Shown here: positions 38,999 through 52,429 of the stretch, piece by piece
How positions within the stretch are numbered: position 1 is the first letter of the stretch
How the letters are laid out: every line of letters begins with the position of its first letter
From: an uncultured Lachnospiraceae bacterium
GTDB taxonomy: Bacteria > Bacillota > Clostridia > Lachnospirales > Lachnospiraceae
Length of the DNA: 64,000 nucleotides
NCBI GenBank assembly: GCA_944380315.1
Contig: CALWHG010000005.1
Span: forward strand, 17,530 to 81,529
Direction of reading: 5' to 3'
Made by a program: the position numbers and the translations under genes
The notes under the pieces: generated by a model
The model's input: only the letters and a program-made list of their open reading frames with translations
Told to the model about the DNA's origin: nothing
Databases searched by the model: none

Positions 38999-39110
38999 TC
39001 AGAACTGTTTTTCATGTTTTTATTTTCATAATCTAACATGGATTATTTTCTGATCCGGCGAAATGGAGTATCTTAGACATATAAAGCTACCAAGGAGGAG
39101 TTTCGTAGAT

Positions 39111-39815
39111 ATGGAAAAAATATTCATTCCCTGCTCATACAACCCTGAGCTCAAGCTCGAGGTATACAAGGGACATTTTGCTTCTGACAGATTTCACTCA
39201 AATTATTATATAGACCTCATACCCATGAAGGTCCAGCTGGCCAAGGCAAAGCTGACTGCAGAGGCCATGGCTGACAAGTATGTGCACAGGGTAAAGACAG
39301 GTGCGCGCAAGGGCATAGGCAGCGAGTATGCAGCCCTTTCCTCAGACCTTGCCATGAGCACTCCCATCGATACCATCATCTGCATGGACGGATGTGAGGC
39401 CCTTGGTGCATACGTGGCTGACAAGCTTTCAGGATATGGTGTATCCACCAACAACGAGTTCGGTACCTACAACATCGTGACACCTGACTTCGATGATTCA
39501 GGAGCTCTGCTCGTCACCGATGACTTCCAGAAGATGCTGAAGGGCAAGAACATACTCATACTTCTTGCTACGGCCATGCAGGGCAAGACCCTCGGAAGGA
39601 TACTTTCCACCGTTTCCGAGTACGGCGGACATATCATAGGTATTTCAGTTATATTCTCCATGGTGGACAGCCTGGACGGATACCCTGTAAATGCTGTATT
39701 TTCAAGGGAGGACATCCCTGACTTCGAGCTTTCCGATGACAAGGGCTGTGAGCTCTGCGGAAAGAAGGTGCCTGTGGACGGTATCATAACCCGTTACGGA
39801 CTGAGAAAGATCTGA
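39111..39815 (+). CDS. Phosphoribosyltransferase-like protein (orotate PRTase-like)
   Basis: Type I PRTase fold protein of a family common in Lachnospiraceae and often labelled orotate phosphoribosyltransferase. Seen: FIPCSYNPELKLEVYKGHFA, a conserved DTIICMDGCEALGAYVADKL, and NILILLATAMQGKTLGRIL, which replaces the usual acidic PRPP loop. The C-terminal CELCGKKVPVDG is a small CxxC element. Because the acidic PRPP motif is not canonical, real orotate activity is uncertain. The ATG at 39111 has AAGGAGGAG upstream; an ATG at 39063 is in frame but has a poor site. Confidence 0.7.
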   Translation: MEKIFIPCSYNPELKLEVYKGHFASDRFHSNYYIDLIPMKVQLAKAKLTAEAMADKYVHRVKTGARKGIGSEYAALSSDLAMSTPIDTIICMDGCEALGAYVADKLSGYGVSTNNEFGTYNIVTPDFDDSGALLVTDDFQKMLKGKNILILLATAMQGKTLGRILSTVSEYGGHIIGISVIFSMVDSLDGYPVNAVFSREDIPDFELSDDKGCELCGKKVPVDGIITRYGLRKI

Positions 39816-39932: not shown

Positions 39933-40607
39933 TCAATAATCCAGCACCAGGTCCTCATCTATGACTGCCCTGAGCTTTCCAAGATCGTTTATGATGGTCT
40001 TCCTGCCGCTCTTCGTTATGGCTCCCGTCTTTTTGAGTGCGCTCATGATCCTTGCCACGGTTATGCTGTGGACTCCGAGATAGTGGCTCAGCTCATCGTA
40101 GGTGAACAGAGGATCCAGCACAAGGCTTCCGGAATCATCCGGCTCGCTTTGCTCCATGATGAGCCAGCAGAGCCTTCCTGCAGCGGAGGTTTCTCTGCTG
40201 GTATAATAGTGATAAAGCACCTCCATGTAGGTGGTGAAGACTATGTTCATCATGAGATCCCGGAAGGGCTGCTCCTTGTGGAGCATGGCGAAGGTCTTGC
40301 GGTCTATGCGGTACAGCTCGCAGTCACTTTTGGCCAGTATGGTGAACATAGCAGGCTCATGTATGGAGGGCATGGGATCCACTCCCAGGAACTGCCTGAC
40401 CAGAGGAGCGAAGCCTACGCAGCTGGGACCTCTGAAGAACAGATAGATGAATTCGTCTCCCTTTTTGTTTGTGGAGGTCAGGGCAGCAAGGCCCTTATCC
40501 AGCACATACATATAGTCATCGTCAGAACCCTCTATGCCGTCGCTTATGATCTCACCGCGTCCCACCTGGATCCGTTTTCCGTATCTGCAAAGGTCGTGTA
40601 TATCCAT
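39933..40607 (-). CDS. Crp/Fnr family transcriptional regulator
   Basis: The only - strand gene here, divergent from the SLC13-type permease. The N-terminal half is a cyclic-nucleotide-binding-type beta barrel (VGRGEIISDGIEGSDDDYMY, then FFRGPSCVGFAPL). A dimer helix follows, then a C-terminal winged helix with FTYDELSHYLGVHSITVARI and MSALKKTGAI as the DNA-reading part. No cysteine cluster for an Fe-S sensor is evident, so it is more Crp/HcpR-like than FNR-like. The ATG at 40607 has GGGGAA upstream; the open frame continues 17 codons further. Inferred to control the sulfur genes through TAAC-N4-GTTAT sites. Confidence 0.88.
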   Translation of the reverse strand: MDIHDLCRYGKRIQVGRGEIISDGIEGSDDDYMYVLDKGLAALTSTNKKGDEFIYLFFRGPSCVGFAPLVRQFLGVDPMPSIHEPAMFTILAKSDCELYRIDRKTFAMLHKEQPFRDLMMNIVFTTYMEVLYHYYTSRETSAAGRLCWLIMEQSEPDDSGSLVLDPLFTYDELSHYLGVHSITVARIMSALKKTGAITKSGRKTIINDLGKLRAVIDEDLVLDY

Positions 40608-40684
40608 AAATATTCCCCATAATGTTATGCTCCAAGCATGAGACCATGTGACAGTCATGCCCTGTACCTTAACTCCTGAGGCTT

Positions 40685-40714
40685 ATTATAACATAAAATT
40701 ATCCTTTAAGTTAA
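40685..40714 (-). promoter_or_regulatory. Predicted promoter of the crp-type gene
   Basis: On the - strand: TTAACT (40714-40709) as -35 and a perfect TATAAT (40690-40685) as -10, 18-bp spacer. The -35 overlaps the dyad at 40711-40724, which would allow self-repression. Confidence 0.65.
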
Positions 40715-40724
40715 CCTAAGTTAT
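40711..40724 (+). promoter_or_regulatory. Candidate Crp/Fnr-type operator of the permease promoter
   Basis: TTAAC-CTAA-GTTAT, a 5-4-5 dyad as used by Crp/Fnr regulators. Its first base is exactly 36 bp before the -10 candidate TAAAAT (40747-40752), putting its centre at about -41.5. The same motif with the same spacing occurs before trxB. Confidence 0.65.
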
Positions 40725-40743
40725 TTTTAAACAGAGGGGACTC

Positions 40744-40802
40744 CGTTAAAATAATGACAAAAGATGTAGGTTTTTAAACAAAAGGATCGTTAAAATGCTG
40801 AC
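40744..40802 (+). repeat. Direct repeat in the permease leader
   Basis: CGTTAAAATAATGAC at 40744-40758 and CGTTAAAATGCTGAC at 40788-40802: 13 of 15 bases are identical, 44 bp apart. The first copy contains the predicted -10 box. Confidence 0.65.
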
Positions 40803-40804
40803 GA

Positions 40805-40848
40805 TCAAAGGGGAGGTGCGGCCTTTCGCACCATTTCGTGCGCTTTGA
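40805..40848 (+). promoter_or_regulatory. Structured 5' leader with mutually exclusive hairpins
   Basis: An outer stem (TCAAAG / CTTTGA) encloses GGTGCG-CGCACC (40815-40832). The CGCAC arm can instead pair with GTGCG at 40838-40842, excluding the first stem. The leader from the predicted start is about 125 nt. Its function is unknown; it matches no riboswitch class I recognise. Confidence 0.45.
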
Positions 40849-40886
40849 CGGTCCTTCAAAAAAAGAAATGAGGTATGTTAGAAGCT

Positions 40887-42344
40887 ATGTCTAAAGAAAA
40901 AGGCGGTCTTTCACTGACCATGATCAACACAATCATCGGTATAGCCATCATGTTCATCATCAGGCTATTCCCGCCCGTGGCTCCCATAACCGAGACAGGC
41001 ATGGAGGTGCTTGGTATATTTATCGGTACCCTCTGGCTCTGGACCACGGTAGACCCTACCTGGGCAAGTATCTTTTCCATATTCATGATAGGTGTCAGCA
41101 GCTACGATACCATGGGCAATGTCATCACTGCCGCATTTGGTAACCCTACCGTAGTACAGATGCTCTTCATGATGATCTTTTCCGGAGCACTCGTTAACCA
41201 GAGGATCACTCCTTACATAGGACGCTGGTTCCTTACAAAGAAGGTGGCAGAGGGCAAGCCCTGGCTGCTGACATTCTTCATATGCCTTGGAGCATATATA
41301 CTTTCAGTATTCCTCGGACCCTTCGCTCCCATATTCCTGTTCTGGCCCGTGCTTTATGAGATATTCCAGCAGCTGGGCTATACAAACAAGGACAAGTATC
41401 CCAAGATAGCAGTCATCATGGTAGTATTTTCCTCCATGCTGGGCTTCCCTGTACCCCCTTATCAGGGCAACACCCTTGCGCTGCTCACTAACTATCGTAC
41501 CATATCCCAGGGTACAGTCACCATCAACGATGGTATGTACTTTGCATGGGGCATAACCCTTGGCTTCATGCTCATGGTGCTGTCCATACTTTTCTGCAAG
41601 TATGTGTTCCGTCCCGATGTGAGCAGGCTCAAGAACCTGACCATAGAGGACCTTAACAGGAACCCTCTGCCTCCCATGACCATACATCAGAAGGTACTTT
41701 CCATCACCTTCGTGATCTATGTGCTCTGCATGCTGCTTCCCAGCTGGATACCCACGGCTCCCGGCATGGCAGTGCTCAAGGCCAACTCGACCGGACTCGC
41801 AGCCATATTCGTATCGCTGCTTTCAGCCCTTCAGATCAAGGGTAAGTCTGTTATCGATTTCCAGGCTACCATGAAGAACAACGTGGCATGGAGCACCTTC
41901 TTCCTCTGCACCTCAGCTATCCTTATAGGCAGCGTGCTTACCGCAGAGAATACAGGTATCTCAGGATTCCTCAACCAGCTCCTTGTGCCCATGTTCTCAA
42001 ACATGAATTCATTTACCTTCATCATATTCCTGATGGTAGTGCTCTGTGTGCTGACAAATGTCTGCAACTCACTGGTCATCGGTATGATACTTCAGCCCGT
42101 CATCCTGACCTACAGCCAGGCTACAGGCGTAAATGCAGCTCCCATAGTTGCCATGTCCATATTCTTCGTGCTTTCATGCGCCATGGAGACACCTGCTGCA
42201 TCACCCTTCGCAGCCATGCTCTTTGGTAACAAGGAGTGGCTCAAGTCCACCGACATCTATAAGTACTGCGGTATACTCATACTCTTTGAGTTTGCTCTCG
42301 TGCTCGTGATCGGTGTACCTTATGCAAACCTCCTTCTCGGTTGA
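40887..42344 (+). CDS. SLC13/DASS-type anion permease
   Basis: Membrane carrier with about 11-12 helices. The layout suits the divalent anion:sodium symporter superfamily: a first half with WTTVDPTWASIFSIFMIGVS and LVNQRITPYIGRWFLTKK, and a second half with FLCTSAILIGSVLTAENTGI, NVCNSLVIGMILQPVI and SCAMETPAASPFAAMLFGNK. Family substrates are dicarboxylates, citrate, sulfate and related anions. Because it lies between a Crp-type regulator and sulfur genes, uptake of sulfate, a sulfate ester or a sulfonate is inferred. An ATG at 40875 is also in frame. It has its own promoter with a candidate operator and leader. Confidence 0.85.
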   Translation: MSKEKGGLSLTMINTIIGIAIMFIIRLFPPVAPITETGMEVLGIFIGTLWLWTTVDPTWASIFSIFMIGVSSYDTMGNVITAAFGNPTVVQMLFMMIFSGALVNQRITPYIGRWFLTKKVAEGKPWLLTFFICLGAYILSVFLGPFAPIFLFWPVLYEIFQQLGYTNKDKYPKIAVIMVVFSSMLGFPVPPYQGNTLALLTNYRTISQGTVTINDGMYFAWGITLGFMLMVLSILFCKYVFRPDVSRLKNLTIEDLNRNPLPPMTIHQKVLSITFVIYVLCMLLPSWIPTAPGMAVLKANSTGLAAIFVSLLSALQIKGKSVIDFQATMKNNVAWSTFFLCTSAILIGSVLTAENTGISGFLNQLLVPMFSNMNSFTFIIFLMVVLCVLTNVCNSLVIGMILQPVILTYSQATGVNAAPIVAMSIFFVLSCAMETPAASPFAAMLFGNKEWLKSTDIYKYCGILILFEFALVLVIGVPYANLLLG

Positions 42345-42369
42345 GTTTGACGTATATTTTCAACAAAAT

Positions 42370-42383
42370 ATAACGAATGTTAT
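42370..42383 (+). promoter_or_regulatory. Candidate Crp/Fnr-type operator of the trxB promoter
   Basis: ATAAC-GAAT-GTTAT, a perfect 5-4-5 dyad. Its first base is exactly 36 bp before CATAAT (42406-42411), the same geometry as at 40711, giving a centre near -41.5. Confidence 0.65.
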
Positions 42384-42411
42384 TTAAAATTTACGGGAAA
42401 TTTGCCATAAT
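42383..42411 (+). promoter_or_regulatory. Predicted promoter of trxB-trxA-ASST-asrABC
   Basis: CATAAT at 42406-42411 as -10 and a poor TTTAAA at 42383-42388 as -35 (17-bp spacer). A weak -35 next to a centred dyad is typical of activator-dependent promoters. Confidence 0.6.
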
Positions 42412-42436
42412 ATATTTATATAGGCAGATTTCCCGT
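42393..42436 (+). repeat. 14-bp inverted repeat across the trxB transcription start
   Basis: ACGGGAAATTTGCC (42393-42406) and GGCAGATTTCCCGT (42423-42436) are inverted copies with 13 of 14 bases matching. The arms are 30 bp centre to centre around an AT-rich 16-bp spacer that holds most of the -10 box. There is no T run, so it is an operator candidate or a leader hairpin rather than a terminator. Confidence 0.7.
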
Positions 42437-42458
42437 GACCTTAAGTAGGGGAACTTGA

Positions 42459-42476
42459 GCCGCAGAGCCCTGCGGC
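42459..42476 (+). other. Hairpin just upstream of the trxB ribosome site
   Basis: A perfect 7-bp GC-rich stem (GCCGCAG / CTGCGGC) with an AGCC loop, 5 bp before GGAG and 16 bp before the ATG. Confidence 0.6.
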
Positions 42477-42492
42477 AGAATGGAGATGTGAC

Positions 42493-43416
42493 ATGAACGA
42501 GATATATGATGTGGTCATCATAGGCTCAGGCCCTGCAGGTATGACCGCAGCGGTCTATGCAGCCAGAGCCGACATGAAGGTACTTATGCTGGACAAGCTG
42601 GCCCCCGGCGGACAGATCATCAACACAAACGAGATCAACAATTATACCGGTATCCAGAGCATCAACGGCGCTGAGCTCGCCATGCAGATGTTTGAGCATA
42701 CCCAGGCTCTGGGCGTCGGCTTCGACTACCGCACCGTTACCCGCATAGAGGACTGCGGAAAGATAAAGAAGATACACTGCCTTGAGGATGACATGGTATA
42801 TGAGGCAAAGGCAGTCATCATAGCCACAGGTACAAGGCATCGTACCCTGGGACTTCCCACCGAGGATAAGTGGAAGGGCAACGGCATAAGTTGGTGTGCC
42901 ATCTGCGACGGAGAGCAGTACCGCGGCAAGGACGTGGTAGTCATAGGCGGAGGCAACTCTGCAGTAGAGGAGTCACTGTACCTGGTAGGCATAGTGAACA
43001 GCCTGACCATAGTCACCATGTTCGATCTGACCGCAGATCCCATGGTATGCGACAAGCTCAGGGCAAATCCCAAGGTGAAGATCTATGCATATCAGGATGT
43101 GCTTGATTTTACCGGAGAGGACAAGCTTACAGGCGTGCACTTCAAGAGCACCAAGACCGGCGAGGAGAACACGGTACAGTGCGACGGAGTATTTGAGTAT
43201 ATAGGCCTTGAGCCCACCACAGAGTTCGTGGAGGATCTGGGCATACTTGACCGTGGATACGTAGTGGTCAACAACAGGATGGAGACCTCAGTGCCCGGTA
43301 TCTACGCTGCCGGTGACTGCATAGTGAAGAACCTTCGTCAGGTCATCACTGCCTGCGGAGACGGAGCCATAGCAGCCGAGGAGGCATCTCATTACGTACA
43401 GAAGCTTGAGGGCTGA
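42493..43416 (+). CDS. trxB: Thioredoxin reductase
   Basis: NADPH-dependent flavoenzyme that reduces thioredoxin. The FAD motif VVIIGSGPAGMTAAVYAA, the redox pair in WCAICDG (Cys135, Cys138), the NADPH motif VVVIGGGNSAVEESLYL, and the C-terminal FAD segment PGIYAAGDCIVKNLRQVI are all present. The 307-residue length is normal. It is the first gene after the second candidate Crp-type operator and is followed 49 bp later by trxA. Its placement in front of a sulfotransferase and sulfite reductase suggests a dedicated reductant supply, although it could also be the general enzyme of the cell. Confidence 0.94.
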   Translation: MNEIYDVVIIGSGPAGMTAAVYAARADMKVLMLDKLAPGGQIINTNEINNYTGIQSINGAELAMQMFEHTQALGVGFDYRTVTRIEDCGKIKKIHCLEDDMVYEAKAVIIATGTRHRTLGLPTEDKWKGNGISWCAICDGEQYRGKDVVVIGGGNSAVEESLYLVGIVNSLTIVTMFDLTADPMVCDKLRANPKVKIYAYQDVLDFTGEDKLTGVHFKSTKTGEENTVQCDGVFEYIGLEPTTEFVEDLGILDRGYVVVNNRMETSVPGIYAAGDCIVKNLRQVITACGDGAIAAEEASHYVQKLEG

Positions 43417-43465
43417 CATAAGGCCCCGGCGGCACATAAACACAGCAAAGACAAAGGAGACAGAC

Positions 43466-43777
43466 ATGATCAAAGAGGTAAATGCGGAAGAGTATAAGGC
43501 TGAGGATAAGAGCGGCCTTGTACTTGTGGATTTTTACTCCAGCACCTGCGGACCCTGCAAGATGATGGCATTCGTGCTTCGTGATGTGGATCAGCAGCTC
43601 GGCGACAAGGTAAAGATCCTTAAGGTCAATTTTGATGAGAACAAGGAGCTGGTAGCAGAAAACGGGGTGACCGGCTATCCTACACTGGTGCTTTTAAAGG
43701 ACGGAGCTGAGGTAAAGCGCCTCGGCGGACTCCAGCAGAAGCCCGTAGTCATCAAGATGATCGAAGAGAACCTGTAA
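43466..43777 (+). CDS. trxA: Thioredoxin
   Basis: Small dithiol carrier protein. Active site CGPC (Cys28, Cys31) in VDFYSSTCGPCKMM, and the cis-Pro in GVTGYPTLVLLKDG. It is 103 residues. The frame opens earlier, but AAAGGAGACAGAC before this ATG marks the start. It lies between trxB and the aryl-sulfate sulfotransferase gene (36 bp). In sulfur metabolism thioredoxin reduces PAPS reductase or S-sulfonated thiols to release sulfite. No PAPS reductase is present here, which makes the pairing with a sulfotransferase notable. Confidence 0.94.
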   Translation: MIKEVNAEEYKAEDKSGLVLVDFYSSTCGPCKMMAFVLRDVDQQLGDKVKILKVNFDENKELVAENGVTGYPTLVLLKDGAEVKRLGGLQQKPVVIKMIEENL

Positions 43778-43813
43778 ATCCACCAAGTAAAATCATTTAA
43801 GGAGAAGAGAAAC

Positions 43814-45685
43814 ATGGCAGTAAAGTACACTTATCAAAAGTATCTTATCGACCAGCAGTATGAGGCCGAGGAAGCCATGCTGAAGGAGTTCCGTGAGGGC
43901 AACTACACACTTGAGAATCCTCTTGTGAAGTACAACCTTTACATGATCAACCCCCTTTCAGCAGTGGTATGCTTCAGGACTGAGGAAGAGGTAGCTGTGA
44001 CCGTACGTGTCCTTGGCAAGAAAGGACATCAGGGAGACATCTATCATACCTTCCCCAAGGCAAAGGAGCATGTGCTTCCCGTAGTAGGACTTTATTCAAA
44101 CTATGAGAACAAGGTAGAGCTTGAGGAGTACAGAGGACACAAGCATACCATCACCATCACTACTCCCGATGTATTTGACGGAGCAGACCCCATCATCTCC
44201 ATGCACACCACTCCGGAGTATCTTCAGGACAACGTGATCATGGTATCACCCGCAGGTGAGGACCTGACCGTAGCCTATGACTACAACGGTGACGCCAGGT
44301 TCCACATGACCATCCCCTGCGTATTTGACGTTAAGCGCGCAAAGAACGGCAACCTGCTCATGGGTACCAACAGGATACTTCGCCTGCCCTACTACATGAG
44401 CGGTGTATATGAGATGAGCCCTGTAGGAAAGATCTACAAGGAGTACAGACTTCCCGGCGGATATCATCACGATGAGTTCGAGCTTCCCGATGGCAACCTC
44501 CTGGTGCTGACTGATGATCTTCAGTCCGATACCGTAGAGGATAAGCTTGCTCTGGTAGACAGGAAGACCGGTAAGGTGCTCCGTACCTACGACTACAGGA
44601 AGATCCTTCCCGAGAAGGAGGCCGGCAGATCAGGAAGCTGGACCGATGAGGACTGGTTCCACAACAATGCCTGCTGGTATGATCCCAACACCAACAGCGT
44701 GACCCTTTCAGGACGTCATGTGGATGCCATGATCAACATCGATTTTGACAGTGGCGAGCTTAACTGGATCATCGGAGATCCTCACGGCTGGCCTGAGGAC
44801 TTCGTAAAGAAGTACTTCTTCACTCCCGTAGGTACCAACTTCGGATGGCAGTATGAGCAGCATGCCTGCGTCATCACTCCCAACGGAGACGTTATGTGCT
44901 TCGACAACCATCACTACGGAAGCAAGGATCCTGAGAAGTTCCTTCCTGCAAAGGACAACTACTCAAGAGGCGTGCGCTACCACATCAACACCAAGGATAT
45001 GACCATAGAGCAGGTATGGGAGTACGGCAAGGACCGCGGAGCTGAGTTCTTCAGCCCTTATATCTGTAACGTTGAGTACTACAACGAGGGACATTACCTT
45101 GTACACTCAGGCGGTATCGGATACATGCCCGATAATGTTACTCCCTGTGAGGGACTTCCTCCAGCATTCAGGAATGAGGGCGCTCACCTTTATGCTACCA
45201 CCGTTGAGATCGACAACGATGTGAAGAAGCTGGAGCTCAAGGTTCATGGCAACTTCTACCGCGCAGAGAAGCTTAAGCTCTACTCCGATGGCATCAATCT
45301 GGAGCTCGGAAGAGGTGAGGAGCTTGGTGAGATGGGCGTTACCAAGGAGTTCGACATAGAGGTACCCGCAGAGAAGACAGGCGAGATCCTTCCCGACATG
45401 CATGAGGCAGAGGTAGTTGAGGAGCCCGATCGCTTCACCTTCAACGCTACCTTCGAGAAGGGACAGATGGTGCAGCTCCTGGTTTGCCAGGGCGAGGAGA
45501 TCCACAGATACTTCATCTCCACTACCGCTCGTCAGCTCAAGGCTATGTGCGTAGCTACCTTCATGTCACCCGATGCCCGTCAGACCAGGACCTTCATCAA
45601 CAAGGAAGGCCTCAAGGGCACCTACGATCTTCGTGTCATCATCGATGACAAGGAGTACGAGACCGGCATCCAGGTCACCTGCTAA
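43814..45685 (+). CDS. Aryl-sulfate sulfotransferase, cytoplasmic type
   Basis: Enzyme that moves a sulfuryl group from an aryl sulfate ester to another acceptor through a sulfo-histidine, without PAPS. Beta-propeller type, 623 residues. Residues matching the E. coli AssT active site: His218/219 (GYHHDEF), His283 and Asn285 (WFHNNACWYD), Arg301 (LSGRHVD, 16 after the Asn as in AssT) and His350 in WQYEQHACV as probable nucleophile. No signal peptide is present, unlike periplasmic AssT. About 140 C-terminal residues form an extra domain ending in a terminal Cys. ATC and CGT codons dominate, as in gap, suggesting high expression. It lies between trxA and asrA, so its product may feed sulfite reduction (inferred). 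Confidence 0.87.
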   Translation: MAVKYTYQKYLIDQQYEAEEAMLKEFREGNYTLENPLVKYNLYMINPLSAVVCFRTEEEVAVTVRVLGKKGHQGDIYHTFPKAKEHVLPVVGLYSNYENKVELEEYRGHKHTITITTPDVFDGADPIISMHTTPEYLQDNVIMVSPAGEDLTVAYDYNGDARFHMTIPCVFDVKRAKNGNLLMGTNRILRLPYYMSGVYEMSPVGKIYKEYRLPGGYHHDEFELPDGNLLVLTDDLQSDTVEDKLALVDRKTGKVLRTYDYRKILPEKEAGRSGSWTDEDWFHNNACWYDPNTNSVTLSGRHVDAMINIDFDSGELNWIIGDPHGWPEDFVKKYFFTPVGTNFGWQYEQHACVITPNGDVMCFDNHHYGSKDPEKFLPAKDNYSRGVRYHINTKDMTIEQVWEYGKDRGAEFFSPYICNVEYYNEGHYLVHSGGIGYMPDNVTPCEGLPPAFRNEGAHLYATTVEIDNDVKKLELKVHGNFYRAEKLKLYSDGINLELGRGEELGEMGVTKEFDIEVPAEKTGEILPDMHEAEVVEEPDRFTFNATFEKGQMVQLLVCQGEEIHRYFISTTARQLKAMCVATFMSPDARQTRTFINKEGLKGTYDLRVIIDDKEYETGIQVTC

Positions 45686-45696
45686 ACATTCTAATC

Positions 45697-45730
45697 CATG
45701 GCTCCCGGAACACATCATCCGGGAGCCGTG
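45697..45730 (+). other. Stable intercistronic stem-loop between the sulfotransferase gene and asrA
   Basis: A 12-bp stem (CATGGCTCCCGG / CCGGGAGCCGTG, one T-G pair) with a 10-nt loop and no T run. It probably protects or separates mRNA parts and lowers asr levels relative to the upstream gene; it does not look like a full terminator. Confidence 0.7.
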
Positions 45731-45749
45731 AACTCAGGAGGATACGTTA

Positions 45750-46790
45750 ATGGGATACAGACTGAATAAAGAACAGTCCAACGCTCTGTTTGCCAAGCTG
45801 AGCGAAAAATATGACATCTATGCTCCGAAGCGCTTCCCCAAGCAGGGACGCTATTCCGACACTGATGTCATAAAGTATGACAAGGTGACTTCCTTCGATG
45901 AAGTGGAGTATACCGAGAAGTCCACATATCCGATGAAGGAGGTCCTGAACCCCGTTCATCAGACACTGTTTTATTTCAATGATGAGGACTATCATGAGGC
46001 CGTAAAGAATCTCAGGCCCATGCTCATCATCGGACGTGCCTGTGATATAAATGCACAGAAGATCCAGGAGAGGATATTCCTCGGCAATGGCTTCCATGAG
46101 GATGCATATTACAGGAGACGTCATGATATGGCCAAGTTCGTGCTCATGGAGTGCAACGGCGGTACCGATACCTGCTTCTGCGTATCCATGAACGCAAACA
46201 AGACCGACGACTATGTATTCGGACTCAAGTTCTCAGAGAACGGACTTGAGATCGAGTCCAAGGACGCGGAGTTCGAGCCCTACTTCAGCGAGTACGAGAA
46301 GGAAGATTTCAAGGTAAAGTTCGTTGAGGATAATCAGCTCACAGTTACTCCTCCCGTCATCCCTGACAAGGAGGTGCTCAACGCTCTCAAGAAGCATCCC
46401 ATGTGGAAGGAATATGATGCAAGATGCATCTCCTGCGGTGCCTGCACCATGGCCTGCTCCACCTGCACCTGCTTCACCACCAGAGACGTTGTATATACCG
46501 AAAATGCCGACAACGGTGAGAGACGCAGAGTATCTGCATCCTGCCAGGTAGCAGGCTTTGATCAGATGGCTGGTCAGAGAGAGATGCGTCCCACTGCCGG
46601 AGATCGTATGCGCTATAAGGTGCTCCATAAGTTCCATGCATATGATGCAAGGTTCCATGAGGGCCCCATGTGCGTAGGCTGCGGAAGATGTACGGATCAT
46701 TGCCCTCAGTTCATAGCTCTTTCAGCTACAGTCAACAAGATGTCCAAGGCAGTTGAAGAGATCATGAAGGAACAGGGAAAGGAGTGCTGA
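45750..46790 (+). CDS. asrA: Anaerobic sulfite reductase subunit A
   Basis: Electron-carrying iron-sulfur subunit of the AsrABC sulfite reductase, which makes sulfide from sulfite. Two [4Fe-4S] ligand sets are seen: Cys226-229-232-236 (CISCGACTMAC) and Cys308-311-314-318 (CVGCGRCTDHCP). The N-terminal ~200 residues are the DUF4445-free, AsrA-type region with LIIGRACDINAQ. The 346-residue length is normal. AGGAGG lies 10 bp before the ATG. asrB follows after one base. Confidence 0.95.
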   Translation: MGYRLNKEQSNALFAKLSEKYDIYAPKRFPKQGRYSDTDVIKYDKVTSFDEVEYTEKSTYPMKEVLNPVHQTLFYFNDEDYHEAVKNLRPMLIIGRACDINAQKIQERIFLGNGFHEDAYYRRRHDMAKFVLMECNGGTDTCFCVSMNANKTDDYVFGLKFSENGLEIESKDAEFEPYFSEYEKEDFKVKFVEDNQLTVTPPVIPDKEVLNALKKHPMWKEYDARCISCGACTMACSTCTCFTTRDVVYTENADNGERRRVSASCQVAGFDQMAGQREMRPTAGDRMRYKVLHKFHAYDARFHEGPMCVGCGRCTDHCPQFIALSATVNKMSKAVEEIMKEQGKEC

Positions 46791-46791
46791 T

Positions 46792-47586
46792 ATGATAAGG
46801 AACGAATTACAGCCTGCAGCATGCAGGATACTCAGTGTAAAGCATGAATCTGTGCATGAGTGGACCTTCCGCGTGGCTACAGACATAAAGGTAAGCCACG
46901 GTCAGTTCATGCAGCTTTCCATCCCCAGGGTAGGAGAGGCTCCCATCTCTGTTTCCATGCAGGGTGACGGATGGCTCGAGTTCACTCTTCGTCCTGTAGG
47001 AAAGGTCACAAACGAGATATTTGAGAAGAAGGCCGGCGAGTACCTCTTCCTGAGAGGACCCTATGGCAATGGATGGCCCAAGCACAGGATAGACGGCAAG
47101 CATCTGGTAGTCATCACCGGAGGCACAGGCCTTGCTCCCGTAAGGAGCCTTCTCAATCATTACTATGATCACATGGATGAGATAAAGGACATCCACCTCA
47201 TCAGCGGCTTCAAGAATGATGAGAGCATAGTATTTACAGAGGATCTGGCAAAGTGGAAGGAGAAGTTCACCACCATCTACGCCCTTGACAACGATCAGAA
47301 GGAGGGCTTCAGGACAGGTATGGTAACAGCCTTCGTTTCCGAGATACCCTGGAAGGATTTCGGAGAGGACTATACCGTACTTGTGGTAGGACCCCCGCCC
47401 ATGATGAAGTTTACCGGACTTGAGCTCCTTAAGAACGGAGTCAAGGAGGAAAACATCTGGATGAGCTTCGAGAGGAAGATGTCCTGCGCCATAGGTAAGT
47501 GCGGACACTGCCGTATCGATGAGGTATATGTATGTCTTGACGGACCGGTATTCATGTATACCGTTGCCAAGGATCTCGTAGATTAA
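46792..47586 (+). CDS. asrB: Anaerobic sulfite reductase subunit B
   Basis: Flavin subunit that takes electrons from NADH for AsrAC. It has the ferredoxin-reductase fold: an FAD domain around FMQLSIPRVGEAPISVSM, the NAD site VVITGGTGLAPVRSL, and a C-terminal cluster loop with MSCAIGKCGHCRIDEVYVCL. At 264 residues it matches AsrB. It resembles NfnA at 8.8 kb but belongs to the sulfite reductase operon by position, one base after asrA and 11 bp before asrC. Confidence 0.95.
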   Translation: MIRNELQPAACRILSVKHESVHEWTFRVATDIKVSHGQFMQLSIPRVGEAPISVSMQGDGWLEFTLRPVGKVTNEIFEKKAGEYLFLRGPYGNGWPKHRIDGKHLVVITGGTGLAPVRSLLNHYYDHMDEIKDIHLISGFKNDESIVFTEDLAKWKEKFTTIYALDNDQKEGFRTGMVTAFVSEIPWKDFGEDYTVLVVGPPPMMKFTGLELLKNGVKEENIWMSFERKMSCAIGKCGHCRIDEVYVCLDGPVFMYTVAKDLVD

Positions 47587-47597
47587 GGAGGGCGCAT

Positions 47598-48677
47598 ATG
47601 AACAACGATATAAATGTAAAAGCGCTGCAGAGGAACTGCTTCCGTCAGTCCAAGGTGCCCGGAGAGTTCATGCTTCAGATGCGTGTTCCCGGAGGTGTCA
47701 TCCCCGCAAAGTATCTTGAGGTGGCTACACATATCGCTGAGACCTGGGGCGACGGCAATTTCCATATAGGAACCAGACAGACCCTGGATTTCCCCGGCAT
47801 CAAGTATGAGAGCATACCTGCCGTAAATGCCTATATCCAGGAGTATATAGAGGGCGTTGAGACTGAGCTTTCAGGCGTAGACATGAACCAGATAGCTCAC
47901 GAGCCTCATGAGTGGGATCCCAAGTCAGGATATCCCACCATCGGTGCGAGAAATGTTACCGCCTGCATAGGAAACGTACACTGCATATGCGGAAACATCA
48001 ACACCCAGGAGATGGCAAGGAAGGTGGAGCAGCTCATATTCCCTTCCAACTATCACATCAAGGTCAATGTGGCAGGCTGCCCCAACGACTGCATCAAGGC
48101 AAACATGTGTGACTTCGGTATCATAGGAGTCGCTAAGATAGACTTCCATCCTGACCGCTGCATAGGCTGCGGAGCATGTGTAAGACAGTGTAAGGCTGCT
48201 TCCACAAGAGTCCTTATGTCAGGCCCCAACGGCCTTCCCATCAAGGATGACTGCTGCTGCGTAGGCTGTGGAGAGTGCGTAAGGGTATGTCCCGCAAGCG
48301 CATGGACCAGGAACCCTAAGAAGTTCTACAGAGTTATCCTCGGCGGACGTACCGGACGTCAGACCCCCAGAGCAGGAAAGATGTTCCTCAACTGGGCTAC
48401 AGAGGAGGTCGTACTTGGAGTACTCAAGAACTGGCAGAAGTTCTCAGCATGGGCACTTGATTACAAGCCTGTATATCTCCATGGCGGACATCTTATCGAC
48501 CGTGCAGGATATCACAAGTTCAAGGAGATCATCCTTGAGGGCGTTGAGCTCAATCCTGAGTGCCAGGTAGCAGAGCAGATGTTCTGGGCTGAGACCGAGT
48601 GGCGTTCCAACTTCAATGTCAAGTTCCCTGAGGATCACCTGACCGCAGGTCCCGGATCCAACAACGGAGGACATTGA
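47598..48677 (+). CDS. asrC: Anaerobic sulfite reductase subunit C (siroheme catalytic subunit)
   Basis: Catalytic subunit, reducing sulfite to sulfide by six electrons at a siroheme-[4Fe-4S] centre. The coupled-centre ligands are Cys123-x5-Cys129 (TACIGNVHC) and Cys161-x3-Cys165 (GCPNDC). Two ferredoxin-type clusters follow: Cys188-191-194-198 (CIGCGACVRQC) and Cys221-224-227-231 (CVGCGECVRVC). The substrate-binding GDGNFHIGTRQTLDFPG is intact. It is 359 residues. Last gene of the transcript. Siroheme is supplied by the genes at 49.4-52.4 kb. Confidence 0.96.
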   Translation: MNNDINVKALQRNCFRQSKVPGEFMLQMRVPGGVIPAKYLEVATHIAETWGDGNFHIGTRQTLDFPGIKYESIPAVNAYIQEYIEGVETELSGVDMNQIAHEPHEWDPKSGYPTIGARNVTACIGNVHCICGNINTQEMARKVEQLIFPSNYHIKVNVAGCPNDCIKANMCDFGIIGVAKIDFHPDRCIGCGACVRQCKAASTRVLMSGPNGLPIKDDCCCVGCGECVRVCPASAWTRNPKKFYRVILGGRTGRQTPRAGKMFLNWATEEVVLGVLKNWQKFSAWALDYKPVYLHGGHLIDRAGYHKFKEIILEGVELNPECQVAEQMFWAETEWRSNFNVKFPEDHLTAGPGSNNGGH

Positions 48678-48723
48678 CTTAAGGAGCCCCATGGGCTAAA
48701 CTGAATCAGGAGTCTGAATAAGC

Positions 48724-48791
48724 AGGCTGCCGTGAGCAGCCTGAGCATTTAAAAGCGAGACTGTCAGGCTTTAGGCCTGGCAGTCTTTTTT
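48724..48791 (+). terminator. Hairpin plus Rho-independent terminator after asrC
   Basis: A first perfect stem AGGCTGC / GCAGCCT (48724-48742, loop CGTGA). Then AGACTGTCAGG / CCTGGCAGTCT (48758-48786, one G-T pair) with a T run to 48791. It separates the asr operon from bioY. Confidence 0.9.
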
Positions 48792-48819
48792 GATAGATGA
48801 CCGGAGGCAACATAAGTTT

Positions 48820-49404
48820 ATGGCTGTACATACAGAAAGCCGGCTGAGGACACAAAGGCTAGTGCTCTGCGGCTTCTTTGCGGCTCTCATGGCTGTGGGA
48901 GCTTTCATAAAGATAGTCATACCCCTGGGCATATGGCAGGTCACCCTTTCCCTGCAGCTGTTTTTTGCACTGCTTTCGGGCATGCTGCTTGGATCGGGTC
49001 CGGGCTTGCTCAGTGTGGCAGTCTATCTCATCATAGGACTTACGGGTGTGCCCATATTTGCGCACGGAGGAGGGCTCACATATATCATGAAGCCCACCTT
49101 CGGGTTCCTCATAGGCTTTGCTGCCGCTGCCTATGTTTCAGGCAGGGTGCTGGAGCTTCTGAAAAGACGGAGCATGGCCTGGCTCATACTGGCAGGAGCC
49201 CTGGGAGAGCTGGCCTATTATGTTTGTGGCCTTGTGTATTATTTTCTTATGTTCAACTATGTGCTGACCAGCGGACAGACTATAGGGGTCGCTGAGCTCA
49301 TGAGCGTATGGTTCCTGAGTACGGTGCTGCCGGACTTCCTTCTGGTGGTGCTTGCTTCAGTAGTCGCTGTAAGGCTCACGCCGAGATTCAGGGAGATCAT
49401 GTAA
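48820..49404 (+). CDS. bioY: BioY family biotin transporter substrate-binding component
   Basis: Membrane S component (about six helices, 195 residues) that binds biotin, working alone or with an ECF energising module. The conserved core is QVTLSLQLFFALLSGMLLG, VYLIIGLTGVPIFAHGGG and KPTFGFLIGFAAAAYVSG. The ATG at 48820 has GGAGG about 13 bp upstream, slightly far. No ECF ATPase genes are in the window. It starts after the asr terminator and ends one base before the hemC fusion, so it is probably co-transcribed with siroheme genes, which is functionally unexpected. Confidence 0.92.
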   Translation: MAVHTESRLRTQRLVLCGFFAALMAVGAFIKIVIPLGIWQVTLSLQLFFALLSGMLLGSGPGLLSVAVYLIIGLTGVPIFAHGGGLTYIMKPTFGFLIGFAAAAYVSGRVLELLKRRSMAWLILAGALGELAYYVCGLVYYFLMFNYVLTSGQTIGVAELMSVWFLSTVLPDFLLVVLASVVAVRLTPRFREIM

Positions 49405-49405
49405 A

Positions 49406-51766
49406 GTGAAAAAGCTTATACTGGCAACGAGAGGGAGCCTGCTGGCGCTTAAGCAGGCAAATATAGTGAAGGAGCTCCTTGAGCAGAGGGGCGTGGAGAC
49501 AGAGATACTTGAGACCACGACCAAGGGAGACAAGGACCGTATCCATGCCCTGGTGCGCATGGGAGGTAACGGAGTATTTATCCGGGAGATAGAGGAGAGG
49601 CTCCTTACCCATGAGGCAGACATAGCCGTACACAGCGGAAAGGATCTGCCCTACGAGCTTGCAAAGGGCCTCCTCATAGCCTGTACGCCTCCGGCAGCTG
49701 ATCCCCGGGACTGTCTTATACTCAGGAAGGGGCACAGCCTTACGAAGGATTCGGTCATAGGCACAGGAAGCCCCAGAAGGATGAGTGAGTACAGAGCCAT
49801 ATACGGTGATGCCATATTCAAGCACATCAGGGGCAATGTCACCACTCGACTGAGGAAGCTCAGGGAGGGAGAGTATGACGGCATCATACTGGCCAGGGCT
49901 GGTCTTGACCGTATAGGAGCGGACCTTTCAGATCTGGAGCAGAGGATATTTGATCCGGAGGAATTTATGCCTTCTCCCTGCCAGGGCATCATAGCAGTGG
50001 AATGCAGGGAGGATGACATAGAGGTAAGAGAGCTGCTCTCAGGCATATCTGACAGGGAGACCTGGCAGCGCTTCAGTGCGGAGAGAGCCCTGTTCTGCTC
50101 ACTCAAGGCGGACTGCACCTCACCCATAGGAGTACACAGCAAGGTGGAAGGAACAAGGCTCAGCCTCTCTGCCATGCTGGATGGGAGGCGTGCCTATGCA
50201 TCCGGAGGCCTGGAGGAGCTTGATCGGATCTGTGGAGACATAAGAAAGCAGCTCCTTTTGGGCAACGTGACACTGGTGGGCGGAGGCTGCGGCCCCGGGC
50301 TCCTTACGGAGAAGGGGGTAAGAGCCATAGAGGAGGCAGATGCCATAGTATATGATGACCTCCTTGGTGAGGGCTTCATGTCCCATGTGAGCCGGGGAGC
50401 TGAGCTCATATATGTGGGAAAACGTGCCGGCCGCCACAGCATGTCTCAGGAGGATATAAATGTTCTCCTCATAAGGCTTGCCTCTGAAGGAAAAAGGGTC
50501 ATAAGGCTCAAGGGAGGTGATAGCTTCGTCTTTGGACGAGGTGGCGAGGAGGTGCTGGCACTTTCTGATGCAGGCATCCCCTATGAGGTGATCCCGGGCA
50601 TAAGCTCAGCCATAGCAGTGCCTGAGCACCTTGGCATACCGGTGACTCACAGAGGCATGGCAAGGTCATTTACGGTCATAACTGGACATACCAGGGATGA
50701 TACAGAAGAAAATTGGGATGCTTTGGCTGGACTTTCGGGTACACTCGTATTTTTGATGGGGTTATCCAGGCTTGAGCATATAGCTTCTGAGCTTATGGAC
50801 CATGGCAAGTCACCCGATACACCAGTGAGCATATTGTCCGAGGGCTTCTCTCCCACAGAGAGAAGGATAGACGGTACCCTTTCTACCATAGTGGAGACAG
50901 CGGACAGGGAGAAGCCTGCGACCCCTGCCATCATAGTAGTGGGAGAGGTGGCAGCCCTTCATATGGAGGGCACGCTTGAGCAGCCTGCCCTTTTAGGAGT
51001 CAGGGTCATGGTCACTGGCTCTGAGCGGTTTACTGAGACATTTTCCCGTGAGCTTCGCAGGCGTGGAGGCCGCGCTGTCATACGTAATACCATAAGCATC
51101 AGGCCCATGCCGGAAAATATACCTGATCGGCCTGAGGACTATGACTGGATAGTATTTACCAGCCGAAACGGCATAGAGGTATTTTTCCAGTGGCTTGGAA
51201 GCAGGAGGGCTGATATAAGGTCTCTGTCCCGCAGCAGGTTTGCCTGCGTGGGAAGCTCCACCGGAGATGAGCTGGCATCCCATGGCATATATGCAGATTT
51301 CGTACCATCGGAGTTTACGGCAGAGAGGCTCGGAGCCGAGCTTCCTGGGCATGTGGCTCCCGGAGAGCGGGTGCTGATACTCAGGGCCCAGGAGGGCTCG
51401 CGGGACCTTGATCTGGGACTGAGCAATGCAGGAGTGGACTTTGAAGCAAGGAGCATCTATCGCACGGAGGAAGCTGGGCAGGGCGAGGCAACAGGTATAT
51501 ATCCCGGATCTGAGCCCGACTGCGACTACATAGTCTTTGCCAGTGGCTCTGGCGTAAGGAGCTTTTTCAATGGCTATGAGGAGCATGGAGCTGAGCTGGC
51601 AGCCAAGGCACTCGGATGCATGGTGCCTGTGTGCATAGGCCAGGCCACGGCTTCAGAGCTTGAAAAGAGAGGCATAGGAGGTTATCTGTCTGCCAGTGAG
51701 CATACGGCAGCCGGCATACTGTCTGTCATAGAGGATGATATAAGGAAAAGGAAGGTAAAGGGCTGA
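49406..51766 (+). CDS. Trifunctional HemC-CobA-HemD tetrapyrrole protein
   Basis: Three enzymes in one chain, taking porphobilinogen to precorrin-2. HemC (about 1-285): RGSLLALKQANIV, HSGKDLP (catalytic Asp80; usually HSMKD), GSPRR, and the cofactor Cys237 in KADCTSPIG. CobA/SUMT (about 286-525): TLVGGGCGPGLLT, RLKGGDSFVFGRGGEE and TVITGHT. HemD (about 529-786): GVRVMVTGSER, DWIVFTSRNGIEVFF and YIVFASGSGVRSFF. CobA-HemD fusions are common in clostridia; the added HemC is rarer. The start is a GTG with GGGAG 10 bp upstream. With SirC downstream this gives siroheme. hemA, hemL and hemB are not in the window. Confidence 0.93.
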   Translation: MKKLILATRGSLLALKQANIVKELLEQRGVETEILETTTKGDKDRIHALVRMGGNGVFIREIEERLLTHEADIAVHSGKDLPYELAKGLLIACTPPAADPRDCLILRKGHSLTKDSVIGTGSPRRMSEYRAIYGDAIFKHIRGNVTTRLRKLREGEYDGIILARAGLDRIGADLSDLEQRIFDPEEFMPSPCQGIIAVECREDDIEVRELLSGISDRETWQRFSAERALFCSLKADCTSPIGVHSKVEGTRLSLSAMLDGRRAYASGGLEELDRICGDIRKQLLLGNVTLVGGGCGPGLLTEKGVRAIEEADAIVYDDLLGEGFMSHVSRGAELIYVGKRAGRHSMSQEDINVLLIRLASEGKRVIRLKGGDSFVFGRGGEEVLALSDAGIPYEVIPGISSAIAVPEHLGIPVTHRGMARSFTVITGHTRDDTEENWDALAGLSGTLVFLMGLSRLEHIASELMDHGKSPDTPVSILSEGFSPTERRIDGTLSTIVETADREKPATPAIIVVGEVAALHMEGTLEQPALLGVRVMVTGSERFTETFSRELRRRGGRAVIRNTISIRPMPENIPDRPEDYDWIVFTSRNGIEVFFQWLGSRRADIRSLSRSRFACVGSSTGDELASHGIYADFVPSEFTAERLGAELPGHVAPGERVLILRAQEGSRDLDLGLSNAGVDFEARSIYRTEEAGQGEATGIYPGSEPDCDYIVFASGSGVRSFFNGYEEHGAELAAKALGCMVPVCIGQATASELEKRGIGGYLSASEHTAAGILSVIEDDIRKRKVKG

Positions 51767-51808
51767 CCGGTATATCCGGACAGTAGGCCCTGGGAGGAGG
51801 ACTCACTT

Positions 51809-52429
51809 ATGGCATATTTTCCGATCATGGTGGATCTGGAAGGAAAAAAGGTGCTGATCATAGGCGGAGGAGAGACGGCTGCGAGAAAGGCAGAGATGAT
51901 GCTCGAATTTGGAGCCAGGGTCACCGTAGTGACAAAGGAGCTTCGGGCAGCCATGCCTGAAGCTGTAAATGTCATAAACCGGGCCTTCCGTCCGGAGGAC
52001 ATAAGCTGTCCGGGAACAGGCGATGATACCGCAGCCGGAGATACAGGAGCAGAGGAGACTTTTGGGGAGGAGCCGTTTCTCATCATAGCCGCCACGGACG
52101 ATCGTAAGGTAAACGAGGAGGTGGCCAGACTTGCCATGGAGCGGCACATACCCATAAATGTGGTGGATGATGAGCCCCTCTGCAGCTTTACATTTCCAGC
52201 TGTCATAAGGGATAGGGACGTGGTAGTGTCTGTCAGCAGTGGAGGCAAGAGCCCGCTGGTGACCCAGCATGTGAAAAAACAGCTCCTGGCTGCCATGCCT
52301 CCCCATATTGGAGAGATCAATGATGAGATGGGGGAGCTGAGGAAGCGGATCCGGGAGACAGTGCCTGGCCAGAAGGAAAGGAAGCAGATATATAAGGAGG
52401 AGCTAGAGAGGCTCCTTAACCGAGAATAA
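51809..52429 (+). CDS. Precorrin-2 dehydrogenase (SirC/CysG N-terminal type), likely also sirohydrochlorin ferrochelatase
   Basis: Last steps of siroheme synthesis: NAD-dependent oxidation of precorrin-2, and in bifunctional members iron insertion. A Rossmann start, KVLIIGGGETAARKAEMML, is followed by LIIAATDDRKVNEEVARLA, SFTFPAVIRDRDVVVSVSSG and GKSPLVTQHVKKQLL. An acidic, probably disordered insert of about 22 residues (near 70-92, PGTGDDTAAGDTGAEETFGE) interrupts the usual loop. It is 206 residues. Supplies the AsrC cofactor (inferred from context). Confidence 0.9.
   Translation: MAYFPIMVDLEGKKVLIIGGGETAARKAEMMLEFGARVTVVTKELRAAMPEAVNVINRAFRPEDISCPGTGDDTAAGDTGAEETFGEEPFLIIAATDDRKVNEEVARLAMERHIPINVVDDEPLCSFTFPAVIRDRDVVVSVSSGGKSPLVTQHVKKQLLAAMPPHIGEINDEMGELRKRIRETVPGQKERKQIYKEELERLLNRE

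Follow-up and report, generated by a model that had tools for sequence, protein, structure and literature searches.

Gene content and conservation of the locus

We analyzed a 64,000-nucleotide stretch of DNA from an uncultured Lachnospiraceae bacterium (contig CALWHG010000005.1; referred to as the window), in which positions 39933-52429 hold a gene cluster with an arylsulfate sulfotransferase (ASST), a thioredoxin (TrxA), a TrxB-type flavoprotein and the sulfite reductase AsrABC, a candidate pathway for the reduction of aryl sulfates to sulfide. Profile matches identified the following genes, with the order and the strands that the initial annotation had given for them:

39933-40658, minus strand: Crp/Fnr-family regulator, divergent from the permease gene (PF13545, HTH_Crp_2, and PF00027, cNMP_binding, over the cut-off)
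40875-42344, plus strand: DASS/SLC13-like anion permease (PF03600, CitMHS, and PF00939, Na_sulph_symp, over the Pfam cut-off)
42493-43416, plus strand: TrxB-type flavoprotein, the second copy in the genome (TIGR01292, 328 bits; cut-off, 343)
43466-43777, plus strand: TrxA-type thioredoxin with a TCGPC active site (PF00085 over the cut-off; TIGR01068, 89.6 bits versus 96.8)
43814-45685, plus strand: ASST without a signal peptide (PF05935, E 7.9e-100, over the cut-off; PF17425)
45750-46790, plus strand: asrA (TIGR02910, 393.4 bits; cut-off, 323)
46792-47586, plus strand: asrB (TIGR02911, 331.9 bits; cut-off, 288.6)
47598-48677, plus strand: asrC, siroheme sulfite reductase subunit, of a longer, low-scoring subtype (TIGR02912, 366 bits; cut-off, 324)
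49406-51766, plus strand: HemC-CobA-HemD fusion for siroheme precursor synthesis (profile matches)
51809-52429, plus strand: SirC-type (CysG N-terminal) siroheme synthesis protein (TIGR01470 over the cut-off)

All three AsrABC subunits scored over the curated cut-offs and are encoded consecutively, and the siroheme supply for AsrABC is encoded 3′ of asrC by the HemC-CobA-HemD and SirC genes. TrxB and TrxA belong to the families named, with scores slightly under the curated NCBIfam cut-offs. The permease reached 65.9 bits against the NCBIfam DASS model TIGR00785 (cut-off, 198.6), and since this is far under the cut-off despite the Pfam matches, its subfamily is only loosely assigned. The intergenic gaps from trxB to asrC measured 49, 36, 64, 1, and 11 bases, with the 64-base gap lying between ASST and asrA.

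Scanning 84,980 species genomes with exact peptide patterns, which favor near relatives, yielded 69 loci in 62 genomes after duplicates were merged. The genes trxB, trxA, and ASST stood in a row at 46 of the 69 loci, and permease, trxB, trxA, and ASST did so at 38; a Crp-type gene was divergent from the permease at 19 loci, and asrA lay directly 3′ of ASST at 18. A thioredoxin was present in the ASST locus of 53 of the 62 genomes and was found at most three genes away on the same strand at 54 of the 67 loci whose ASST reaches 500 residues (the fragments L068 and L070 were left out). In an even sample of the phylum (398 genomes, partly overlapping the first set), 13 genomes carried an ASST at E 1e-100 or better, and, outside the window's own genome, 7 of 17 full-length loci were thioredoxin linked (the fragments L131 and L137 were dropped). 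None of 13 genes for distant ASSTs of the order, in 10 loci of which some are on short contigs, had a thioredoxin nearby (L083 and L143, with fewer than 500 residues or not seen, were dropped from this control); by Fisher's test, uncorrected for relatedness, this corresponds to p = 0.010 versus 7/17 and p = 3e-8 versus 54/67. The neighborhood is conserved far beyond chance, and the gene set whose conservation had been proposed as a check of the initial annotation is kept in relatives, both as trxB-trxA-ASST and as ASST followed by asrA.

The sulfotransferase and its thioredoxin partners

To describe the ASST protein, we used an alignment of 70 rows, 61 of which form one clade and 9 of which are distant ASSTs of the same order with 20-35% identity. 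The catalytic positions H219, H283, R301, and H350 were kept in all 61 clade members. In a separate alignment with the Escherichia coli enzyme, H219, H283, N285, R301, and H350 of the window ASST correspond to His252, His356, Asn358, Arg374, and His436 of that enzyme (residue names from passages of a July 2026 review, PMC13426309), and E. coli Thr501 is replaced by I417. The window ASST has no N-terminal hydrophobic stretch, and none above a hydropathy of 1.2 was seen in the 61 clade rows, while 8 of the 9 distant ASSTs have a hydrophobic, secretion-type N terminus. An AlphaFold2 model of ASST (predicted local distance difference test, 94.1; predicted template modeling [pTM] score, 0.92) gave E. 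coli ASST for all of the best nine PDB chains in Foldseek (3ELQ fold; template modeling score by query, 0.57-0.59), followed by Cpz4 as the next match.

The family chemistry, as set out in passages of the same review, is a ping-pong transfer via a sulfated histidine, and one study found aryl sulfates to be the sole donors (PMC13426309). The review also describes sulfuryl transfer between phenols in vitro for ASST relatives, and aryl sulfotransferase activity in vitro for the aryl sulfotransferases (ASTs) of Hungatella effluvii and Desulfosporosinus sp. HMP52 (PMC13426309). Both organisms are among our loci (L004 and L054, respectively), the assayed ASST of each species not being matched to the locus. 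Lachnospiraceae loci that include L004, L007, and L009 have a tandem arrangement in which another ASST, about 50% identical to the first, separates it from asrA. In Peptococcaceae and at some loci of the Desulfosporosinus type, ASST has as its neighbor a distant PF05935/PF14269 protein of smaller size (L069:12070-13515).

Two cysteines characterize the clade. C579 was present in 61/61 clade ASSTs versus 0/9 distant rows (seven by a gap), and C418, which adjoins the position of E. coli Thr501 in the alignment with that enzyme, was a cysteine in 55/61, a serine in 6/61, and a cysteine in 0/9 distant rows. We considered C418 as an obligatory S-sulfocysteine relay and rejected this, as the serine-bearing members include L018 and L120, which have a linked thioredoxin. 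Likewise, we rejected the equation of DhAST Val579, a residue whose change alters acceptor use (PMC13426309), with the residue beside C579, since residue numbers in the relatives that we checked were not consistent with it.

As for the thioredoxin genes, TrxA linked to ASST carried TCGPC in 49 of 49 copies of relatives (one place, L044 and L174, being counted twice), and the housekeeping TrxA of the genome has WCGPC. HRRxxxR was absent from the cluster TrxB and from all 59 linked TrxB proteins of relatives, and it is present in the genome's own housekeeping TrxB; GxGxxA was found in the window TrxB and in 55/59 linked ones. With GxGxxA plus HRRxxxR as the motif of NAD(P)H thioredoxin reductases (as defined in passages of PMC10880999), the cluster TrxB lacks the full motif, and TrxA, while matching PF00085, has neither a TIGR01068 score over the cut-off nor WCGPC. 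Judged by these sequence features, the TrxA/TrxB pair is dedicated to the ASST cluster.

In Desulfosporosinus and its kin, ASST is accompanied by another thioredoxin gene (TRX2; PF00085), whose product has the motif CHVC or CHIC in 12 of 13 cases, and in most instances by a TrxB-type gene of greater length. All 62 thioredoxin copies found lay at most two genes from an ASST; since ASST or AsrC served as the anchor for retrieving the loci, this closeness is hardly informative about other parts of the genomes. On an ASST tree of 119 rows (114 different), the TRXA label requires seven changes and TRX2 three, and well-supported branches force six and two of these, respectively. Thus, the link between thioredoxin and ASST was gained or lost repeatedly.

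These data bear on the possibility that the thioredoxin pair merely keeps ASST reduced and active, as a cytoplasmic counterpart of DsbL/DsbI, with ASST moving or hydrolyzing aryl sulfates and AsrABC receiving sulfite from elsewhere. The conserved C418 and C579 would suit such a role. However, DsbL/DsbI oxidize whereas Trx reduces, and the two cysteines that form the disulfide of the E. coli enzyme are without counterpart in the alignment with that enzyme. Maintenance would also leave the sulfite reductases and exporters of ASST genomes unexplained. There is precedent for the joint encoding of an ASST and a redox partner, but recombinant relatives are active (passages of PMC13426309). Overall, we consider maintenance of ASST improbable.

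Sulfite sources and sinks and candidate regulation

In the genome of the window, which is 95% complete, we found no ATP-sulfurylase (PF01747), no PF01507 protein of the 3′-phosphoadenosine 5′-phosphosulfate (PAPS) reductase family, no glycyl-radical enzyme (PF02901) and no Xsc at E 1e-100 or better (the sulfolactate and cysteate lyases SuyAB and CuyA were not searched). The absence from the window of genes for the reduction of adenosine 5′-phosphosulfate (APS) or PAPS and for sulfonate lyases, stated in the initial annotation, thus extends to the genome for the four families searched. These data also argue against ASST being an aryl sulfatase whose free sulfate leaves via the permease, so that the sulfur never reaches sulfide: an early AST, given no acceptor, behaved as an aryl sulfatase, with free sulfate seen (passages of PMC13426309), but the genome has no ATP-sulfurylase or PAPS-reductase-family gene to use sulfate, and the dedicated thioredoxin pair and asrABC would be without a role. 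We regard this explanation as very improbable.

Among 51 ASST genomes (the genome of the window and 50 of the 62), ATP-sulfurylase occurred in 7, all Desulfosporosinus, and Xsc over the cut-off in 3. PF01507 matched 29 of the 51 and is too broad to prove a PAPS reductase; therefore, only its absence from the window's genome is used here. AsrC over the cut-off was found in 38/51 ASST genomes versus 36/246 genomes of the order (p = 1e-16, with the window's genome left out and relatedness uncorrected). The AsrC proteins of ASST genomes are mostly longer and score about 350-390 bits, and most AsrC proteins of the order score 450-585 bits, indicating two subtypes; the lower-scoring one also occurs in three genomes without an ASST of the clade (L156-L158).

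Other routes for sulfite were seen in the 13 ASST genomes without AsrC over the cut-off. Seven of them carry DsrA, each with an adjacent weaker match that is presumably DsrB. ASST together with DsrA was observed in gut Peptococcaceae (L055, L060, and L064, in genomes G286, G689, and G690), and G286 has no ATP-sulfurylase. G282 and G283 have a more distant AsrC match (108-111 bits), the G282 protein belonging to the nitrite/sulfite-reductase family by Pfam. In a Eubacteriaceae locus (L046:12073-13080) and in Hutsoniella sourekii (L048:11966-12964), whose genomes have neither AsrC over the cut-off nor DsrA, a YeiH-family gene over the Pfam cut-off and under the NCBIfam cut-off lies directly 3′ of trxB-trxA-ASST; YeiH is taken as a sulfite exporter in Hyphomicrobium, a role proposed from its induction (passages of PMC12423496 and PMC11582611). 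At a further locus, L127:3417-9089, a TauE-family gene lies 5′ of ASST. L127 also encodes AsrA/AsrB-like electron-transfer proteins with scores far under those of AsrA and AsrB at other loci. In the ASST genomes G261 and G295, neither AsrC over the cut-off nor DsrA was found.

The remaining features of the region concern its transcription and its neighboring genes:

39063-39815, plus strand: phosphoribosyltransferase-like protein (weak PDB matches, mostly phosphoribosyltransferases, PurR included)
40711-40724, plus strand: operator-like palindrome with one mismatch to ATAAC-N4-GTTAT, in the regulator-permease gap
42370-42383, plus strand: operator-like palindrome, exact, before trxB
45697-45730, plus strand: inverted repeat with 13-nucleotide arms and no T run, between ASST and asrA
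48757-48787, plus strand: intrinsic-terminator-like site after asrC (14 pairs and a T tail)
48790-49404, plus strand: BioY-family gene (PF02632)

The gaps from trxB to asrC contain no T-tailed terminator-like site (a single weak match was located within the ASST coding sequence). Terminator-like matches numbered 14 in the region against 8.4 expected, and the site at 48757-48787 has the longest stem. Since this site and the BioY-family gene, which is probably unrelated to the sulfur cluster, stand between asrC and the siroheme genes, the latter are probably a separate transcript. Accordingly, the siroheme genes that the initial annotation had grouped with asrABC are present, but the terminator-like site sets them apart from that cluster. 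Its assignment of the preceding genes to two adjacent transcripts fits the palindrome before the permease, the exact copy before trxB and the terminator-free gaps from trxB to asrC.

Promoter-like hexamers before trxB span 42383-42411, and the center of the trxB palindrome would lie about 41.5 bases 5′ of the transcription start, if this is placed 7 bases past the -10 hexamer, the placement of the site at class II Crp/Fnr promoters. The exact sequence ATAAC-N4-GTTAT was found in 11 of 20 regulator-permease intergenic regions (one of the 20 is empty, and some come from close relatives), while in 100 mononucleotide shuffles any palindrome occurred in at most 2 regions. With up to one mismatch, it precedes 31/60 permease genes versus 28/808 other genes (p = 3e-24), a test that is partly circular because as many as 19 of the regions contributed to deriving the motif. 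Independent tests are offered by permeases without a divergent regulator and by the phosphoribosyltransferase-like genes, where the palindrome with up to one mismatch precedes 8 of 17 genes, none exactly (p = 1e-7). The corresponding count for ASST genes was 4/102. In the window itself, on both strands, the palindrome occurs only at the two places listed; this count is not significant in itself, as 20 of 100 shuffles contained two or more, but both copies lie at the two expected promoters. These sites suggest that the Crp-type regulator, acting at ATAAC-N4-GTTAT, would control expression of the permease and of the trx-ASST genes.

The phosphoribosyltransferase-like protein had no Pfam or NCBIfam match, and its best PDB match (E 5e-4) is named "putative lipoprotein." Its family occurs near ASST in 18 loci, and the window gene has only a two-mismatch site, at 39033. 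It is a probable member of the regulon of the ASST cluster.

Proposed pathway and its relation to known systems

Sulfite is the common currency of the recurring partners of ASST, namely, thioredoxin, AsrABC, the DsrA encoded in ASST genomes and the YeiH/TauE carriers. On this basis we infer that the cluster probably encodes an ATP-free pathway of aryl-sulfate reduction, leading from ASST via a TrxA thiol to sulfite and, by AsrABC, to sulfide. The substrate, an aromatic sulfate ester such as a phenol sulfate from host or diet, would enter via the DASS-like permease. The cytoplasmic ASST would take the sulfuryl group onto H350, as the aligned residues and the chemistry of the family suggest, and free the phenol. 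A thiol would then accept the group, in the simplest case that of the first TrxA cysteine, giving an S-sulfo (Bunte salt) intermediate, from which the second cysteine would expel sulfite and leave TrxA oxidized; APS/PAPS reduction has the same last step, the expulsion of sulfite by a thioredoxin-type thiol. The cluster TrxB would re-reduce TrxA, and AsrABC would reduce sulfite to sulfide, which would allow the cell both to dispose of electrons and to obtain sulfur. As the ester comes in an activated form, the activation step would cost no ATP. Where AsrABC is missing, DsrAB would reduce the sulfite or a carrier of the YeiH/TauE type would export it.

The trxA and trxB genes, which had been given no job in the initial annotation, are in our opinion the source of the reducing power by which the sulfuryl group, once transferred, becomes sulfite. 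More specifically, ASST with its own TrxA/TrxB may act as an ATP-independent aryl-sulfate reductase, which passes the sulfuryl group straight to a thioredoxin cysteine before sulfite is released and would be a third route from the sulfate level to sulfite beside APS and PAPS; we put this forward tentatively, as a nearly balanced question. The support for the pathway is genomic and comes from gene identity, catalytic residues, the missing signal peptide, the neighborhood, the dedicated pair and the absent sulfite sources. The conserved gene set and the absence of other sulfite sources also favor the earlier suggestion that a sulfate ester is imported and that the sulfur handled by ASST ends as sulfide.

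Several observations weigh against this pathway. In vitro, related ASTs sulfate phenols, sugars, and amines (passages of PMC13426309), so a thiol is not needed for AST turnover. A read-through fusion of TrxA and ASST was modeled with a pTM of 0.79 versus 0.92 for ASST alone and with no confident docking, which the natural 13-residue linker limits, and C418 is not invariant in the clade. A nearby thioredoxin was missing at 13 of the 67 full-length ASST loci, six of which are second loci of linked genomes; it stood beside ASST at none of five Niameybacter loci, one of them within the 13, and at none of the ASST loci of gut Peptococcaceae. In the phylum sample without the window's own genome, 6 of 12 genomes had a thioredoxin-linked ASST. 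The TRX2 copy at L063:9552-9881, in the second ASST locus of Desulfosporosinus sp. SRJS8, lacks the first CxxC cysteine. A gene like that for coenzyme A (CoA) disulfide reductase (TIGR03385, 531 bits; cut-off, 579) lies near ASST at four Desulfosporosinus loci and at L050 (L050:9131-10759, L054:2259-3908, and L059:13172-14824, among others), and could point to another thiol as the partner.

ASST might instead pass the sulfuryl group to a small thiol such as cysteine or CoA, with TrxA/TrxB then splitting the S-sulfo thiol into sulfite and a disulfide. The outcome and the physiology are the same as in the thioredoxin pathway, and the direct acceptor differs. The broad acceptor range, the lack of predicted docking, the ASST loci without a thioredoxin and the CoA-disulfide-reductase-like genes fit a small thiol; however, that gene family is found at 5 loci only, none of them of the Lachnospiraceae type, and two different thioredoxins have been chosen beside ASST. 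We hold a small-thiol acceptor to be unlikely.

Also against the pathway, an ASST of the clade is lacking from 34 of the order's 36 AsrC genomes, so AsrABC has other uses, and with one mismatch the palindrome precedes trxB in only 4/59 relatives, none exactly, and asrA in 2/35. The genes might instead be unlinked functions of one stress regulon, ASST and the permease dealing with phenols, asrABC with dietary or host sulfite and the thioredoxin pair with redox stress. Besides the AsrC genomes without ASST, this agrees with the placement of asrABC elsewhere in many ASST genomes and with asrABC upstream regions that have no operator. On the other side stand a gene order fixed across families, the position of ASST directly before asrA in the window, the enrichment of AsrC in ASST genomes and, at L163, an ASST-asrABC unit without thioredoxin but with an exact palindrome before ASST. 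A set of unlinked stress functions has little probability in our view.

The component families are known, and the pathway itself would be new: in searches of the open-access literature, with papers judged by title and the start of the abstract, we found no description of a pathway joining aryl sulfate, thioredoxin and sulfide. A 2026 review of gut sulfide has no match for sulfate ester, sulfatase or aryl, and the July 2026 review states, in the passages available, that bacterial PAPS-independent ASTs have gone more than 40 years without an identified natural substrate, and it describes their role as little understood (PMC13426309). If the proposal is true, these enzymes would gain a natural role, with thioredoxin as the missing acceptor, which is testable. 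Phenol sulfates from host and diet would become gut hydrogen sulfide in anaerobes seemingly unable to use sulfate, a source missed by gene surveys for sat, dsr, and the taurine and isethionate pathways. The carriers include Hungatella, Enterocloster, other Lachnospiraceae, and Erysipelotrichaceae-type gut bacteria, and the module would also serve Desulfosporosinus (with DsrA and ATP-sulfurylase), one Peptococcaceae genome that has DsrA and is free of ATP-sulfurylase, and sulfite exporters.

Compared with known systems, the proposed route shares with APS/PAPS reductase and thioredoxin, as that chemistry is generally understood, the S-sulfo thiol and the release of sulfite by thioredoxin, but here the donor would be an aryl sulfate ester, and the genome has no ATP-sulfurylase or PAPS-reductase family. 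The sulfonate-to-sulfide pathways (isethionate lyase and Xsc) likewise lead from organic sulfur via sulfite to sulfide; they split C-S bonds, whereas PF02901 and Xsc were not found in the window's genome. A clostridial thioredoxin with an atypical GCEPC motif presumably serves one reductive pathway, glycine reductase. Its active site is altered, as is that of the cluster TrxA, but its motif is other than TCGPC and its partner is different; the main text of the paper describing it mentions neither "sulfite" nor "aryl" (PMC10880999). AssT of E. coli CFT073 with DsbL/DsbI shares the fold, the active site and a thioredoxin-fold partner with the window ASST; however, it is periplasmic with an oxidizing partner, in contrast to an enzyme without a signal peptide and with a reducing one. 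The PAPS-independent ASTs of the Firmicutes "Cluster II" (DhAST, DsAST, and HefAST) are of the same family and have the same catalytic residues. These are known as in vitro sulfation catalysts (passages of PMC13426309), whereas the window ASST is tied to a thioredoxin, a sulfite reductase and a permease.

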